From contig NZ_VIRS01000001.1 in assembly GCF_006912135.1 (NCBI RefSeq), positions 62,001 through 126,000 on the forward strand: a stretch of DNA of 64,000 bases, given 5' to 3'. The translations under genes were made by a program, and so were the position numbers. The stretch is from Cryptosporangium phraense. Its GTDB lineage: Bacteria; Actinomycetota; Actinomycetes; Mycobacteriales; Cryptosporangiaceae. A model generated the notes under the pieces. That model was not told the origin of the DNA. It made no database searches and saw nothing but the letters and a program-made list of their open reading frames with translations. Shown piece by piece: positions 55,979 through 61,208 of this stretch (position 1 is its first letter; each line of letters opens with the position of its first letter).

Positions 55979-56557
55979 ATGACTTCCTTCCGGCGCATGC
56001 TCGCCGTACTCGGTGCCGGGGCGGCTGCCACCGTGTTCGCCGTCCTCGTGCCCGCGGCCGCGTGGGCCGCCGAAAACCCGGCGCTGGCCTCGGTCGCGTC
56101 CGAGGCCGCACGTGGCCGGCGTCGCAGCGGCGGCGGCTTCGGCATCTGTGGGGCGGTGTGCTGCCTCCTCGTCATCGCGATCATCGTGATCGGCGTCGTG
56201 CTCTTCATGCGGCGCCGGGGCGGTGGGTCCGGCGGTCCCGGTGGGGGCGGCGGCGGGGGCTGGGGCCCGGGTGGTCCCAGCGGCCCGACCGGCCCGAACC
56301 CCGGTTACGGCGCCCCGACGTCCGGTCCCGGGTACGGTGCTCCGACGTCCGGTCCCGGGTACGGTGCCCCCACGTCGGGGCCGGGCTACGGTGGCGCGCC
56401 GACGTCGGGCCCGGGCTACAGCGCCCCGAGCGCGCCGGGTTACGACGCCCCGTCGGCCCCGGGCGGGTACCAGCCGCCGAGCGCGCCCGGTTACAACGAC
56501 CCGACGCAGCCGCCGAGCGCGCCCGGATCGGACTACCGTCCGCCGCCCGCCCCCTGA
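55979..56557 (+). CDS. membrane-anchored protein with PGYGAPTSG repeats
   Basis: A 192-residue protein. A signal peptide (residues 1-30, ending AAAWA) is followed by a short external segment, one transmembrane helix (56-76, CGAVCCLLVIAIIVIGVVLF) and a cytoplasmic Arg-rich stop. The ~110-residue tail is rich in Gly, Pro and Tyr with PGYGAPTSG repeats. Such tails are seen in actinomycete membrane proteins that engage multivalent partners. Function unknown. Confidence 0.75.
   Translation: MTSFRRMLAVLGAGAAATVFAVLVPAAAWAAENPALASVASEAARGRRRSGGGFGICGAVCCLLVIAIIVIGVVLFMRRRGGGSGGPGGGGGGGWGPGGPSGPTGPNPGYGAPTSGPGYGAPTSGPGYGAPTSGPGYGGAPTSGPGYSAPSAPGYDAPSAPGGYQPPSAPGYNDPTQPPSAPGSDYRPPPAP
56300..56422 (+). 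repeat. tandem 27-bp coding repeats (PGYGAPTSG)
   Basis: Four or five units of a 27-base repeat encode PGYGAPTSG, with third-base changes between copies and one unit with an extra Gly (PGYGGAPTSG). Confidence 0.75.
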
Positions 56558-56636
56558 TCGAAGCGCTCCGGAGACGGCCCGGTTCCCCGTGGGGAGCCGG
56601 GCCGTCTCGCGCGATCCGGGGCTCGAACCGAGGCGT

Positions 56637-56642
56637 TAGAGT
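56637..56642 (+). promoter_or_regulatory. putative leaderless -10 (TAGAGT) of the LacI gene
   Basis: TAGAGT is followed by exactly seven bases and ATG 56650. The GTG at 56641 in the same frame overlaps the box, so ATG 56650 is preferred. Confidence 0.4.
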
Positions 56643-56649
56643 GCGGATC

Positions 56650-57645
56650 ATGAGCCCCCGGCTTGCTGACGTCGCCGTCAAGGCCGGCGTGAGCGAGGCG
56701 ACGGTCAGCCGGGTCCTCAACGACAAGGCCGGCGTGTCACCGGCGACGCGGCAGGCCGTGCTGGCCGCGCTCGACATCCTCGGGTACGAACGGCCGGCCC
56801 GGCTCCAGCAGCGCAGCGCCGGCCTGATCGGACTCATCACCCCGGAGCTCGACAACCCGATCTTCCCGGCGTTCGCCCAGATCATCGAGCAGGGCCTGTC
56901 GATGCAGGGCTTCACCGCGGTGCTGTGCACCCAGGTCCCAGGCGGCATGACCGAGGACGCGTTCACCGAGGTGCTGATCGAGCGGGGCGTCGCCGGGATC
57001 GTGTTCGTCTCCGGGCTGCACGCCGACAGCACCGCCGACGTCGAGCGGTACAACCGCCTGGCGGCCCGCCAGTTACCGATCGTCCTGATCAACGGTTACC
57101 AGCCGGGCGTCGCGGCCCCGTTCGTCTCGGCCGACGACCGGGCCGCGATCCGCCAGTCGGTGTCGCATCTGGTGAGTCTCGGGCACGAGAAGATCGGGCT
57201 GGCCGTGGGGCCGCGGCGGTTCGTCCCGGTGCAGCGGAAGGTCTCGGTCTTCGTCGAGCTGCTGGGCGCCGACGCCCCGATCGAGCACACGTTCTTCACC
57301 GTCGAGGGCGGCCACGCGGCCGCGGCGACGCTGATCGCCCAGGGCTGCACGGCGGTGATCTGCGGCAACGACCTGATGGCCCTGGGGGCGATCCGGGCCG
57401 TCCGCGACCTCGGCCGCTCGGTGCCCGCCGACGTCTCGGTGATCGGCTTCGACGACTCCCCGCTGGTGGGGTTCACCGATCCGCCGCTGACGACCGTGCG
57501 CCAGCCGGTGCCGGCCATGGGCACGGCCGCGGTCCAGATGCTGCTGGACGAGCTCCACGGCGTGCCCGGCCCGAAGTCGGAGTTCGTCTTCCAGCCCGAG
57601 TTGGTGGTCCGAGGCTCGACGGGCTCCGGCCCGCGCGTCCGCTGA
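56650..57645 (+). CDS. LacI-family transcriptional regulator
   Basis: A 331-residue regulator. The N-terminal helix-turn-helix and hinge are clear (LADVAVKAGVSEATVSRVLN, then ATRQAVLAALDILGYERPA). A periplasmic-binding-like sensor domain follows (~60-325) with DNPIFPAFAQIIEQGL, ICGNDLMALGAIRAVRDLG and VIGFDDSPLVGFTDPPLTT. It is a sugar- or metabolite-responsive DNA-binding protein, but no transporter or sugar enzyme is adjacent to suggest the effector. It ends ten bases before the hairpin repeat at 57655. Confidence 0.93.
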   Translation: MSPRLADVAVKAGVSEATVSRVLNDKAGVSPATRQAVLAALDILGYERPARLQQRSAGLIGLITPELDNPIFPAFAQIIEQGLSMQGFTAVLCTQVPGGMTEDAFTEVLIERGVAGIVFVSGLHADSTADVERYNRLAARQLPIVLINGYQPGVAAPFVSADDRAAIRQSVSHLVSLGHEKIGLAVGPRRFVPVQRKVSVFVELLGADAPIEHTFFTVEGGHAAAATLIAQGCTAVICGNDLMALGAIRAVRDLGRSVPADVSVIGFDDSPLVGFTDPPLTTVRQPVPAMGTAAVQMLLDELHGVPGPKSEFVFQPELVVRGSTGSGPRVR

Positions 57646-57654
57646 GTGCGCGGT

Positions 57655-57690
57655 GAAGGTTCGCTGGTGTCAGGGCACCAGCAAACCTTC
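57655..57690 (+). repeat. 36-bp hairpin repeat, copy 1 (at the 3' end of the nuclease gene)
   Basis: GAAGGTTCGCTGGTG, loop TCAGGG, CACCAGCAAACCTTC: 15-bp arms with one mismatch. The TGA stop of the nuclease gene lies in the loop, and the 3' arm encodes its last residues, EGLLVP. Its reverse complement matches copy 2 (58683-58718) at 31 of 36 bases. Confidence 0.75.
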
Positions 57691-58617
57691 GTCCACCGCC
57701 CGCACGCCGGAGAAGCCCGGCGGCCGTCTGCGGTAGGCGCGCTCGATGACGTCGAGCACCCGGCGGGGATTCTTCCGCACGTCGGCCGGGCTGAAATGCA
57801 GCGTGAGGACGCCGTGCGCGGCCAGGCGATTGTGCCGATCCCTGGTCCGCTCGTAGTCCTCCAGCGACGTGTGGAACTCGGCCGAATCCAGCTCGAAGGC
57901 GAGGCCGACGTCCTCGATCCAGCCGTCGGGCGTGGGTAGCCGCGTACCGTCGGCGGCGCGCAGCGCGGGATTCCACCGGATCGGCGGCAACACGTCGCTG
58001 GCCAGCGCGAGGGCACGAAGCTCGGCCTCCGTTGCCGAACGTACGCCCGCTCCGAGTTCGTCGAGTACCTCGCGGAGCAGCCGGCTCCCCCGGCTCGGGC
58101 CGGTCCGGTACTCGGCGTCGAGCGCTGCGATCGTGACGCGCCGACGCTGGAGCAGGTCGGCCAGCATCGCCCTCACCGCGCGCCTCGGGTAGCCGGTGCG
58201 GGCGGCGTCGGCACCGGCCCGGGCGGGCGAGCAGACGTCCAACGCCGGACGCAGAACCGGGTGCGGATCCGGCCGGGAAGTCCGCGACACCACGACGAAG
58301 CCGCGCGAACGCCGCACCCGGTCCGCCGGCACCAGGACGTGAATGCGTGGGTCGTCCGGCAGGTACCTCACCCGATGGAACCGCAGTGCCGCGACGCCCG
58401 TGATCTGCGCGCCATCGCCTCCGACGAGAGCCGCCACGATCATGCGCTGCTCGTGCTCGAGCGGCCCGCCGAAGGTCGCGAACAGGCCGGGGAGGACGCG
58501 TCGCCACAGTCCGCGGCGCAGACGCCAGCGAATTGCCTCGTCGCTCAGCCCGCACGCGAGGACCTGGCGGCGGGAGATCACGCCCTGTTGAACGGCGAGG
58601 AGGGCGTCGAGGTTCAC
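57670..58617 (-). CDS. AbiEi-like HTH - DUF559 (Vsr-like) nuclease protein
   Basis: A 315-residue protein from GTG 58617. The N-terminal ~130 residues resemble AbiEi-type antitoxin/regulator domains (LLAVQQGVISRRQVLACGLS, then RRGLWRRVLPGLFATF). The C-terminal ~90 residues fit the DUF559 very-short-patch-repair-like endonuclease fold (VGLAFELDSAEFHTSLEDYERTRDRHNRL, with the acidic residue and late HFSPADVRKNP). The gene is bracketed by two inverted hairpin repeats, one overlapping its own stop codon, which suggests a small mobile unit. The ribosome site is weak. Confidence 0.8.
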   Translation of the reverse strand: MNLDALLAVQQGVISRRQVLACGLSDEAIRWRLRRGLWRRVLPGLFATFGGPLEHEQRMIVAALVGGDGAQITGVAALRFHRVRYLPDDPRIHVLVPADRVRRSRGFVVVSRTSRPDPHPVLRPALDVCSPARAGADAARTGYPRRAVRAMLADLLQRRRVTIAALDAEYRTGPSRGSRLLREVLDELGAGVRSATEAELRALALASDVLPPIRWNPALRAADGTRLPTPDGWIEDVGLAFELDSAEFHTSLEDYERTRDRHNRLAAHGVLTLHFSPADVRKNPRRVLDVIERAYRRRPPGFSGVRAVDEGLLVP

Positions 58618-58682
58618 GGCACCACGGTGGCCGACGAGGCGGGGTTTCGCCGACGGCGCCGGAGGATCTGTGGACGACGGGT

Positions 58683-58718
58683 GAAGGATTGCTGGTGCCC
58701 AGACACCAGCAATGCTTC
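58683..58718 (+). repeat. 36-bp hairpin repeat, copy 2 (upstream of the nuclease gene)
   Basis: GAAGGATTGCTGGTG, loop CCCAGA, CACCAGCAATGCTTC: 15-bp arms with one mismatch. Read on the plus strand it encodes EGLLVPR, like the C-terminus of the nuclease, as if it were the remnant end of another copy on the opposite strand. Confidence 0.75.
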
Positions 58719-58795
58719 TTCGACCCAGGCCGGCCGACCCGGCCGCCCGACCAGCCCGGCCGTGGCGGGCGTGCTGCGGGGAAGCGGGGCTCTGG

Positions 58796-58801
58796 CATGC
58801 T
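58796..58801 (+). promoter_or_regulatory. putative leaderless -10 (CATGCT) of the HIT gene
   Basis: TGGCATGCT with six bases to GTG 58808 and no Shine-Dalgarno, the same box as at 55021-55029. Confidence 0.4.
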
Positions 58802-58807
58802 GGGGCG

Positions 58808-59230
58808 GTGGCGACCATCTTCACGCGGATCATCAACGGGGAGCTTCCGGGCCGATTCGTCTGGAAGGACGAGCTCGCGGTCGGGTTCTTGAGCATCGCG
58901 CCGATCCGGCCCGGCCACACGCTGGTCGTGCCGCGCCAGGAGATCGACCAGTGGACCGACGCCCCGGCGGACCTGCTGACCCACCTGACGAGCGTCGCGC
59001 AGACCATCGGGCAGGCGCAGAAGGAGGCGTTCGAGTCGCCGCGGGCCGCGCTGATCATCGCCGGCTTCGAGGTGCCACACCTGCACCTGCACACGTACCC
59101 GGCCTGGGACCTCGACGACTTCGACTTCCGCAACGCCGACCCGCGGCCGGACTCCGAAGACATGGACGACGCCGCCGAGCGCCTGCGGGCCGCGCTCGAG
59201 AAGAACGGCCACGGCGCCCGGACGCGATGA
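58808..59230 (+). CDS. HIT-family nucleotide hydrolase
   Basis: A 140-residue HIT protein. The histidine triad is in FEVPHLHLHTYP, and the fold opens with ATIFTRIINGELPGRFVWKD. These enzymes hydrolyse dinucleotide polyphosphates or AMP-linked phosphoramidates. The start is GTG 58808. Its end overlaps the next gene by ATGA, so the two form an operon. Confidence 0.93.
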   Translation: MATIFTRIINGELPGRFVWKDELAVGFLSIAPIRPGHTLVVPRQEIDQWTDAPADLLTHLTSVAQTIGQAQKEAFESPRAALIIAGFEVPHLHLHTYPAWDLDDFDFRNADPRPDSEDMDDAAERLRAALEKNGHGARTR

Positions 59231-59835
59231 TCCTCGAGCACCGGGGAGCGCGCCCGGTCGTGCACCCGACCGCGTACGTGGCTCCGACCGCGGTGGTCTC
59301 CGGCGACGTCGAGGTCGGGCCGCACTGCCGCATCCTGTTCGGGGCGGTGGTCACCGCCGACAGCGGCCCGATCCGCCTCGGCGAGCACGTCATCGTGATG
59401 GAGAACGCCGTGCTCCGGGGCACCGCCCGCGACCCGCTCACGATCGGGCACCACAGCCTGGTCGGGCCGCATGCGAGCGTCACCGGGGCCGAGGTCGGCG
59501 AGCGGACGTTCCTCGCGACCGGCAGCTCGGTGTTCAACGGGGCCCGGATCGGGGCGGGCAGCGAGGTCCGCGTCAACGGCTGCGTGCACCTGCGGACGGT
59601 CCTGTCGCCCGGGTCGACCGTGCCGATCGGCTGGGTCACGGTCGGCGACCCGGCCCGGATCATGCCGCCGGTCCACCACGACGCGATCTGGGCGATCCAG
59701 CGCGACCTCGACTTTCCTGGGTACGTGTTCGGCGTCGACCGCGGCGACCCGGACGCGATGGTCACGATCACCGAGCGGTACGCGCGGGCGCTGGCCGAGC
59801 GTCCCACGACGCGAGACGAGCGTTCCGAAAGTTAG
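59227..59835 (+). CDS. gamma-carbonic-anhydrase-like hexapeptide-repeat protein
   Basis: A 202-residue left-handed beta-helix protein with hexapeptide repeats (VHPTAYVAPTAVVSGDVEVG, IGHHSLVGPHASVTG). The histidine pattern and GERTFLATGSSVFNG resemble gamma carbonic anhydrase/YrdA-type proteins. Metal-binding histidines are partly visible. The C-terminal ~50 residues form a helix. Enzyme activity is uncertain. Start ATG 59227 overlaps the HIT gene. Confidence 0.85.
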   Translation: MILEHRGARPVVHPTAYVAPTAVVSGDVEVGPHCRILFGAVVTADSGPIRLGEHVIVMENAVLRGTARDPLTIGHHSLVGPHASVTGAEVGERTFLATGSSVFNGARIGAGSEVRVNGCVHLRTVLSPGSTVPIGWVTVGDPARIMPPVHHDAIWAIQRDLDFPGYVFGVDRGDPDAMVTITERYARALAERPTTRDERSES

Positions 59836-59948
59836 GAACGCGAGCTAGCGTCGGACCGGATCCTCAACCGGGGCCACATCGCGGGCCGGGGCTCGAGGCG
59901 GTACCACCGCTCGGGCCCCGCCGTTCGTCCGAGGCCGGGAGGGTCCCC

Positions 59949-61208
59949 GTGGTTGCTGCCCGTTTGCAAGGCGTCGCGAGTTCGCCGGTGCGCGACCTTC
60001 TCGCGCTGCTCGACCGTCCGGAAGTACTGTCTTTTGCGGGCGGGCTGCCCGCGCCGGAGCTGTTCGACCTCGACGGGGTGCGGGCCGCGTTCGACGCGGT
60101 GCTGTCCGGGCCGCAGGCCCGGCTCGCGCTGCAGTACGCGCCCTCGGAGGGCAACCCCGCGCTGCGCGCGCTGATCGGGGACCGGCTGACCGCGCGCGGC
60201 CTGCCGACCGGTCCGGACGGCCTCCTGGTCACGACGGGTTCCCAGCAGGCGCTGACGCTCGTCGCGACCGCGCTGGTCGACCCGGGCGCGGTCGTCGCGG
60301 TGGAGGAGCCGACCTACCTGGCCGCGCTGCAGTGCTTCCAGCTGGCCGGCGCGCGGATCGTCACCGTGCCCGGCGACGACGACGGGGTCGACCCCGACGC
60401 GCTCGCCGACGTCGTCCGGCGGCACCGGCCGGCGCTGTTCTACACCGTGCCGACGTTCGCGAATCCCACCGGCCGGACGCTGCCGGAGTCCCGCCGGGCC
60501 GCGGTCGCCCGCCTCGCCGACGAGACCGGGCTCTGGGTGGTGGAGGACGATCCGTACGGCGAGTTGCGCTACCGCGGAGCGCCGATACCGCCGCTGGCGT
60601 CGTTCTCGGCCCGCGTGCTCCACCTCGGCAGTTTCTCGAAGATCGGCGCGCCCGGGCTGCGGCTCGGCTGGGTGCGCACACCGGCGTCCCTCCGGCCGGC
60701 CCTGGTCGTCGCCAAACAGGCCGCCGACCTGCACACGTCGACGATCGACCAGGCCGCCGCCGCGGCCTACCTGGCCGCCACCGACCTCGACCGGCACGTC
60801 GAACGCCTGCGGGACGCGTACCGCGAACGGCGGGACGCGATGATCGGCGCGCTGGCCTCGACCCTCCCGGAGGGCAGCCGCTGGACCGACCCCGACGGCG
60901 GCATGTTCACCTGGGTCCGCCTCCCAGACGGCCGCGACGCGGCCGCGCTCCTGCCGGTCGCGCTCGCGCACGACGTCGCGTTCGTCCCCGGAGCGCCGTT
61001 CTACGCCACGACGCCCGATCGGGCGACCCTCCGGCTCTCTTTCACGACGACGACGGTGGACGAGATCCGGGAAGGCGTTCGACGGCTGGGCGTCGCGCTG
61101 GCGCAGCGGGACGCGGGGGCGGAAGTGGGCACGCTCGGGGTGATGTCCGGCCGGAAGCCGGTCGATTCACGGACAAGAAATGGCCAGATCGCGTCCGGCG
61201 CCCGGTGA
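59949..61208 (+). CDS. PLP-dependent aminotransferase, class I/II (LysN/2-aminoadipate-like)
   Basis: A 419-residue enzyme from GTG 59949 with GGGAGGG upstream. It has FAGGLPAPELFDLDGV near the N-terminus, TTGSQQALTLVATAL, PTFANPTGRTLPESRR, and the PLP lysine in LGSFSKIGAPGLRLGW. It aligns with fold-type I aminotransferases of the aminoadipate/aromatic group. The last ~20 residues, beyond the domain, are basic and look extended. No biosynthetic operon partner is seen. Confidence 0.92.
   Translation: MVAARLQGVASSPVRDLLALLDRPEVLSFAGGLPAPELFDLDGVRAAFDAVLSGPQARLALQYAPSEGNPALRALIGDRLTARGLPTGPDGLLVTTGSQQALTLVATALVDPGAVVAVEEPTYLAALQCFQLAGARIVTVPGDDDGVDPDALADVVRRHRPALFYTVPTFANPTGRTLPESRRAAVARLADETGLWVVEDDPYGELRYRGAPIPPLASFSARVLHLGSFSKIGAPGLRLGWVRTPASLRPALVVAKQAADLHTSTIDQAAAAAYLAATDLDRHVERLRDAYRERRDAMIGALASTLPEGSRWTDPDGGMFTWVRLPDGRDAAALLPVALAHDVAFVPGAPFYATTPDRATLRLSFTTTTVDEIREGVRRLGVALAQRDAGAEVGTLGVMSGRKPVDSRTRNGQIASGAR

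Follow-up and report, generated by a model that had tools for sequence, protein, structure and literature searches.

Matched hairpins bracket many genes of a putative AbiEi/Vsr-type nuclease family across an actinobacterial order

The window analyzed here, a whole stretch of 64,000 nucleotides from Cryptosporangium phraense, contains a putative nuclease gene enclosed by two similar hairpins. An earlier note on this DNA described the arrangement as a candidate small mobile element and likened it to REP sequences tied to a dedicated nuclease. The question is what kind of unit the gene and the hairpins form, and which of its parts, if any, moves. The features of the locus are as follows.

56650..57645, plus strand: LacI-family regulator (Pfam LacI, Peripla_BP_3), the end of which forms one edge of the site
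57655..57690, no strand: 3' hairpin, GAAGGTTCGCTGGTG TCAGGG CACCAGCAAACCTTC, spanning the stop codon of the nuclease gene
57670..58617, minus strand: nuclease gene encoding a 315-residue protein, with a likely GTG start at 58617
58669..58677, minus strand: DnaA-box-like sequence TCGTCCACA, with one mismatch to the actinobacterial DnaA box TTGTCCACA
58683..58718, no strand: 5' hairpin, GAAGGATTGCTGGTG CCCAGA CACCAGCAATGCTTC, 65 nt from the likely start codon of the gene
58808..59230, plus strand: HIT-family protein (Pfam HIT, E = 9e-19), forming the other edge of the site

Both 36-bp hairpins are present as had been described, with 14 of 15 arm positions paired in each; they are identical at 31 of 36 positions in the inverted register (reverse complement) and at 28 of 36 in the direct register. 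As single-stranded DNA they fold with energies of -12.9 to -14.5 kcal/mol (z from -5.5 to -7.1), and the window has two matches to their core pattern, with at most three mismatches allowed, where 0.01 would be expected. The 3' hairpin contains the stop codon of the gene (57670-57672) and indeed encodes EGLLVP. The EGLLVPR reading on the plus strand of the other hairpin exists too, but carries no weight because the two hairpins are alike. The open frame of the gene continues upstream of the GTG at 58617, and TCGTCCACA is situated between the 5' hairpin and the gene. A gene for a hexapeptide-repeat protein is also found next to the nuclease gene, in addition to the LacI and HIT genes. Rfam at gathering scores gave no match within positions 56000-60000. 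A homing endonuclease was considered and rejected: the gene resides in neither an intron nor an intein, and in the window it occupies the intergenic space that separates lacI from the HIT gene.

Across the host genome (8.46 Mb) the window hairpin, with up to three mismatches, occurs at just these two places, and it is absent from four other genomes of the host's family. A simple REP reading for the host was rejected, as no further copies of the hairpin exist in its own genome or these four relatives; the system is present there in a low-copy state, with the two bracketing hairpins alone. The earlier note had counted confinement of the hairpin to this place against its proposal. The window hairpin is so confined within the host genome, but the arrangement is not, because bracketing recurs elsewhere with other hairpin sequences. 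The remaining hairpins from this genus showed no dispersed copies in the stretches of 60-220 kb examined per genome, leaving aside two patterns that are too short and unspecific to judge.

The encoded protein combines two parts. Pfam and PADLOC place an AbiEi-type HTH/antitoxin part at about residues 6-170 (Pfam AbiEi_4, E = 9.9e-10; PADLOC AbiEi, E = 3e-14), and the structure model indicates a C-terminal Vsr-like nuclease domain at about residues 190-300. The label of DUF559 nuclease, assigned from the sequence, holds for the fold, which is Vsr-like in the model, but not for the profiles, as Pfam DUF559 and MTES_1575 both remain below the cut-off. The AlphaFold2 model has a mean pLDDT of 65.1; it is weak outside the C-terminal domain and poor at residues 39-129, and its block values are 84-94 over residues 191-310, except for 63 and 71 at residues 241-260, a stretch that contains three conserved residues (E242, D244, and H249). 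With VIA, the C-terminal part of the model matched NGO0050 (Z 12.7, 92 aligned, rmsd 2.1), I-Bth0305I (Z 12.4, 96 aligned, rmsd 2.4), and Vsr (Z 11.3, 100 aligned, rmsd 2.2), the best structures that are not Vsr-like scoring 9.9 or lower; Foldseek alone with this model gave no match at E <= 0.001. Among 66 homologues, E197, D231, D244, H249, and R261 are conserved in at least 94% and E242 in 85%; the conserved acidic and histidine residues presumably represent the EDxHD motif. Given the Vsr-like fold in the model and the conserved residues, the protein is likely an active nuclease. NCBIfam gave no match for three members of the family, and two of four other members tested (L074 and L080) had no Pfam match at E <= 0.01.

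The family is widespread, with homologues (E <= 1e-15) in 264 of 298 genomes sampled from the order, and bracketing is not confined to the window. In a first look at the window's family, 10 of 19 loci had a matched-repeat score of at least 18, and the repeat sequences differed widely between loci. The same score was reached by 20 of 24 new intact loci in a second set (30 loci without L052-L055, which repeat earlier loci, and without L071 and L081, which lie at contig ends), and by 25 of 39 in a third. The 40 places of the third set were hand-picked, non-randomly, down the homologue listing, passing over any homologue that had an internal stop or touched the edge of a contig, and one was dropped because a contig end truncates it. 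Pooling gave a set of 78 loci, made up of 15 of the 20 window-family loci (five fragments were dropped), the 24, and the 39. Within it, 54 of 78 loci are bracketed at a score of at least 18 (41 of 65 when the 13 Micromonospora loci are removed), and 49 of 78 at a cut-off of 22 (38 of 65 without Micromonospora). The remaining 24 homologues are unbracketed at 18 and include L006 and L007, which occupy the window's own lacI-HIT site in two relatives. Named Micromonospora and Plantactinospora loci numbered 27, of which one was set aside as a fragment; 24 of the other 26 score at least 18.

The repeats occupy constrained positions. The median distance from the end of the 5' repeat to the profile match that follows is 130 nt (interquartile range 104-138), and that from the stop to the start of the 3' repeat is 9.5 nt (interquartile range -5 to 32). 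The two repeats are in direct relation at 23 of the 54 loci and in inverted relation at 31. A palindrome score of at least 10 was obtained for 57 of 108 bracketing segments vs. 1 of 324 gene-internal intervals. In control ORFs such scores are rare. None of 98 ORFs of the window's genus reached 18 (maximum 15, in a slightly narrower search span). Of 550 further ORFs, ten did, four of which were at family loci according to a profile search, leaving 6 of 546, all scoring 18-21. These 550 ORFs came from segments of five Micromonospora genomes, the window, and a Rhodococcus ruber record, and were called by a crude longest-ORF caller that missed the family gene in the window, in G047, and in the R. 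ruber record. Repeats paired across loci scored 18 or more in 0 of 195 and 1 of 520 cases. What these data show is a gene family whose members time and again have matched repeats on their two sides; the repeats are specific to each locus, mostly palindromic, and constrained in position. A scan of genome contigs with a genus-specific alignment gave no match, nor did one scan of viral contigs.

Several individual loci show further features. L009 (G002:C6, 1317-1387 and 2480-2548) has two different matched repeats on each side, one pair direct and one inverted, resembling paired REP units. Several hairpins have centers containing TAG/CTA; REPs of the RAYT systems carry an unpaired GTAG (or CGTC) tag at one end. 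The homologue at G090:C1:192522-193427, whose profile match has one internal TGA, overlaps an ORF that lies between copies of a hairpin from another family, GTTGATCAAGGAGTTTGTGTC (score 21); the same genome also carries GGGCCCC-type hairpins, so that parallel enzyme-hairpin pairs exist within one genome.

Many loci have another element, positioned between the 5' hairpin and the gene. Table 1 of PMC4285127 lists TTGTCCACA as the DnaA box with high affinity in M. tuberculosis and S. coelicolor, and TTATCCACA as its E. coli counterpart. With at most one mismatch, the DnaA-box sequence TTGTCCACA is found upstream of 59 of 78 homologues, in 74 forward vs. 7 reverse sites, while far-upstream regions have none and downstream regions nine; at bracketed loci, 62 of 64 such boxes lie between the 5' hairpin and the gene. 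Exact TTRTCCACA is present upstream of 41 of 78 homologues (37 of 65 once Micromonospora is removed). Its density there is 2.56 per kb; control DNA amounting to 2.0 Mb has 0.004 per kb per strand. The controls contain 16 exact sites: six in the first 11 kb of G090, a region that also has a DnaA-like Walker motif, two upstream of family genes, and eight elsewhere. The window contains the one-mismatch form only and no exact TTRTCCACA. Judging by sequence, these elements are probably DnaA sites.

In many genomes the hairpins are not restricted to the gene. The bracketing unit of group g16 (GTGTAAGGAAGGGCCCC...GGTAGAG...GGGCCCCTTCTTAACAC) gave 33-227 hits per genome in nine gene-bearing genomes, where a hit is not equivalent to a unit, as one near-palindrome may give several. 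No hits were found in G111 and G259, both of g16, or in four genomes of other genera, and a backward pattern used as a control gave 0 hits. G111 has no homologue match, and G259 has weaker matches only (the best at 8.8e-39 vs. 1e-74 or better in the nine). We equate g16 with Micromonospora because the 27 named loci of the same gene belong to Micromonospora or its near kin and have the same hairpins. Among 81 Micromonospora genomes, the gene clade (E <= 1e-50) is present in 26, all of which have at least 41 hairpin hits; of the 55 genomes without the gene, 42 have 0 hits, 8 have 1-6, and 5 have 18-143. The dispersed hairpin thus tracks the gene in Micromonospora (Fisher p 1.5e-16, uncorrected for kinship), an association that could be the effect of a single clade. 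Another Micromonospora hairpin, that of L201, has multiple copies in the examined stretches of four of five genomes.

A second group, consisting of g33 and two genera of its family, carries palindromes of the form CGTGAGTG...CACTCACG, with 11-196 in each of 11 genomes, 0 in two further genomes, and 1 in the window's genome; the backward pattern had no hits. The close gene was found in only 6 of the 13 genomes of this group, so that the 11-183 palindromes of five g33 genomes without it are regarded as orphan hairpins. One g33 hairpin searched against plasmids gave no match. Arm changes in g33 are compensatory: of nine variable inner pairs (positions 9-17), eight covary beyond all 500 shuffles in a sample of 50 distinct 42-base copies among the matches listed for two genomes, the outer eight pairs being set by the search pattern and the three pairs beside the center being nearly invariant. 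Covariation in Micromonospora is weaker than in g33, with three pairs clearly above the shuffles, one below, and most columns invariant.

In Rhodococcus ruber MSA14, the gene of WP_029540190.1 (annotated as hypothetical) is bracketed by 48-nt hairpins. The 74-kb record contains six units, two of which bracket the gene; five of the six are intergenic, and four lie between convergent genes. The record (L297/L298, NZ_CP145323.1 1-73973) was deposited as 'plasmid pmega_4'. It contains serS, pks13, fadD32, and arabinosyltransferase genes and has the look of chromosomal DNA.

The explanation that we favor, and consider rather probable, is that the gene and its two hairpins in the window are one unit of a widespread nuclease-hairpin partnership in which the hairpins spread and the gene mostly stays in place. 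Its elements differ in strength. A dedicated partnership of nuclease and hairpin is well supported; that the nuclease mobilizes the hairpins is the likeliest account but unproven; and cleavage and transposition of the hairpins are steps that we infer. Counting against a partnership are the orphan hairpins, the genes without brackets, and the host's low copy number.

Another possibility, which we hold unlikely, is autoregulation, in which the AbiEi-type part acts as a repressor, the upstream hairpin as its operator, and the other copies as operators or terminators, the nuclease acting elsewhere, for example in phage defense. AbiEi antitoxins autoregulate by binding to inverted repeats upstream of their own operon; the HTH of the window protein belongs to this antitoxin family, and the 5' hairpin lies within the promoter region. 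An operator, however, would not be expected at or near the stop codon, where a second copy is found in most bracketed loci, nor in dispersed copies that amount to as many as hundreds of hits and are mostly intergenic in the single R. ruber record. The g33 hairpins also covary as structures, which duplex operators do not need, though palindromic operators covary as well.

Decidedly improbable is the reading of the earlier note, by which gene and brackets together form a whole small transposon, mobile in one piece and ending in the hairpins. In favor of this proposal is the variation of the lacI-HIT site. Within the window's genus, the gene occupies this site in G000 and G003 and, in the opposite orientation, in G002, while in G001, for which no homologue was found, lacI directly adjoins the HIT gene. 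Such variation fits insertion or inversion, with no sharp boundary visible. Further points in favor are that genomes of this genus carry several diverged copies of the gene, many with their own hairpins, and that L016 (G002:C14, 1400-1950), an internally deleted derivative with a shortened gene, retains both hairpins intact and TTATCCACA after the 5' hairpin. In the protein tree, L009, which comes from another locus, groups within the clade of the three lacI-HIT copies, two of which (L006 and L007) are the unbracketed ones mentioned above, which counts against a transposon with hairpin ends. The occurrence of both direct and inverted end repeats likewise argues against it. No target duplication was seen at the compared sites, whose divergence would hide one. 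A search of phages with the window protein found no match. Among plasmids this protein had one match, in a record that looks chromosomal, and two other family members had none.

The proposal is weaker for Micromonospora, where the gene keeps to one locus across species and the hairpins vary instead. The upstream context is common to 24 of 24 loci and both sides to 23 of 24; in M. marina the gene lies between a Dus gene and a class II tRNA synthetase gene. A single match (E <= 1e-50) is present in 25 of the 26 gene-bearing genomes and two overlapping pieces in the other, and the same genomes also carry more distant family members. One Micromonospora copy, L237, keeps the upstream but not the downstream context, has a later stop, and has no bracket.

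The hairpins differ between species. Between G047 and G294 (about 80% identity), 11 of 28 units of the former and three of six of the latter could be placed by both flanks, and the only shared units were the two that bracket the gene. At three sites, two with a G047 unit and one with a G294 unit, the genomes differ in length by 56-61 bases, approximately one unit; the remaining placed sites lack the unit in the other genome and align poorly. G090 and G337 are the closest pair compared, at 94% identity, and share five of the seven units in G090 and all five in G337; the two missing units face other sequence that is 9 and 16 bases shorter, with no clean gap. At about position 5516270 of G090:C1, a hairpin in one species corresponds to another G+C-rich, palindrome-like stretch in the 94% identical relative; here a hairpin may have replaced an older terminator-like palindrome or arisen inside it.

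We give a slight chance to a selfish or guarding system, in which the hairpins mark protected or targeted sites, the nuclease cuts around lost or foreign copies, and the gene and repeats maintain each other. The fusion of an AbiEi-type domain, matched by PADLOC AbiEi, to a nuclease fold and the co-occurrence of hairpins and gene in Micromonospora would suit such a system, but ten genomes retain hairpins without the close gene, and the genes beside the window gene (those for LacI, HIT, and the hexapeptide-repeat protein) include neither a toxin nor a methyltransferase. Least probable, and very much so, is that the hairpins are ordinary terminators or mRNA-stabilizing repeats spread by another enzyme, with the gene bracketed by chance or as a passenger: orphan hairpins do occur without the gene and four of the six R. 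ruber units lie between convergent genes, as is typical for terminators and REPs, but bracketing recurs across the protein tree with unrelated hairpin sequences, no more than six among 546 non-family ORFs reach a score of 18 though dispersed hairpins are common in most of the segments they come from, and 19 of 20 genomes have no RAYT-type Y1 transposase.

Among known systems, the partnership of nuclease and hairpin most resembles REP/REPIN sequences and their RAYT (TnpA-REP) enzymes, as far as the excerpts of published accounts on which this comparison draws describe them. Shared features are dispersed palindromic repeats, as seen in Micromonospora, in g33, and in their density in the R. ruber record; an enzyme gene with these repeats on both sides (54 of 78 loci); a gene that, in the Micromonospora clade, is single-copy, kept at one locus, and vertically inherited by these signs; repeats that are frequent at gene ends; and compensatory changes in their arms. 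The differences are that the window's own genome has two copies only and no dispersal, that the enzyme is an AbiEi-type HTH part with a Vsr-like nuclease rather than a Y1 HUH transposase, that TTRTCCACA boxes lie upstream of the gene, and that the system was found in one actinobacterial order. The RAYT-type Y1 transposase (PF01797) gave no match in 19 of the 20 genomes tested, the window's included, and one match, in G301. Membership in the REP/RAYT family was rejected because its defining Y1 enzyme is absent: the arrangement is alike and the enzyme differs. The comparison drawn in the earlier note, to REPs with a Vsr-type enzyme in place of the RAYT, has gained support well beyond the window locus from bracketing, dispersal, and fold.

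Resemblance to other systems is partial. IS200/IS605 elements, which use a Y1 transposase and a circular single-stranded intermediate, are likewise small units that end in hairpins. They are also linked to replication, which is described for IS608 in an excerpt of PMC6006769 and may apply to the system described here; unlike them, this system has no Y1 transposase (no PF01797 in the window's genome), and its gene unit has hardly multiplied. The EDxHD nucleases Vsr, I-Bth0305I, and NGO0050 share the predicted C-terminal fold and the conserved acidic, His, and Arg residues, but here the domain is fused to an AbiEi-type part, is encoded between hairpins, and is not situated within another gene. 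The AbiE type IV toxin-antitoxin systems have the AbiEi-type HTH and the region that follows it in common with the window protein. In AbiE systems the toxin is a nucleotidyltransferase encoded by a separate gene, AbiEii; in the window no AbiEii toxin gene is adjacent, and a nuclease domain is fused instead. The CGTC-tagged REPs, mostly alphaproteobacterial, are said in an excerpt of PMC3733652 to have no dedicated transposase; the likeness is a lead only. In the open-licence PMC literature searched, we found no description of AbiEi/DUF559 genes with hairpin repeats. Because that literature describes no such set of parts, the combination of an AbiEi/Vsr nuclease with a hairpin family appears, within these bounds, to be previously undescribed.

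The mechanism favored for the nuclease-hairpin partnership is as follows. The AbiEi-type part would bind the hairpin sequence-specifically. Around the time of replication, while the hairpin is single-stranded or forms an extruded cruciform, the Vsr-like nuclease would nick it. Nicking might then lead to the copying of hairpins into new sites, as RAYTs are thought to do for REPs, while the enzyme gene largely remains in place. The putative DnaA boxes could tie expression of the gene or action of the enzyme to the initiation of replication. In its broadest form, the proposal is that the hairpins are REP-like selfish elements of Actinomycetota, made and maintained by AbiEi/Vsr-type nucleases in place of HUH transposases, that DnaA boxes couple the nuclease to replication initiation, and that each nuclease lineage co-evolves with its own hairpin, which yields many parallel enzyme-hairpin pairs; the chances that all of this holds appear to us evenly balanced.

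REP sequences are common bacterial repeats, and RAYTs, in the accounts consulted, are the enzymes tied to them. If the proposal is true, an unrelated second type of enzyme has a REP-like architecture, which would show that more than one kind of nuclease can make use of hairpin repeats and that the REP lifestyle had a second, independent origin. It would also provide a candidate answer for REP families that have no known transposase. The proposal would suggest a function for a large gene family, present in 264 of 298 sampled genomes of the order, and the many natural pairs of enzyme and hairpin make the question of how REPs spread testable. Finally, the association with DnaA boxes offers a handle on the possible coupling of such systems to replication.
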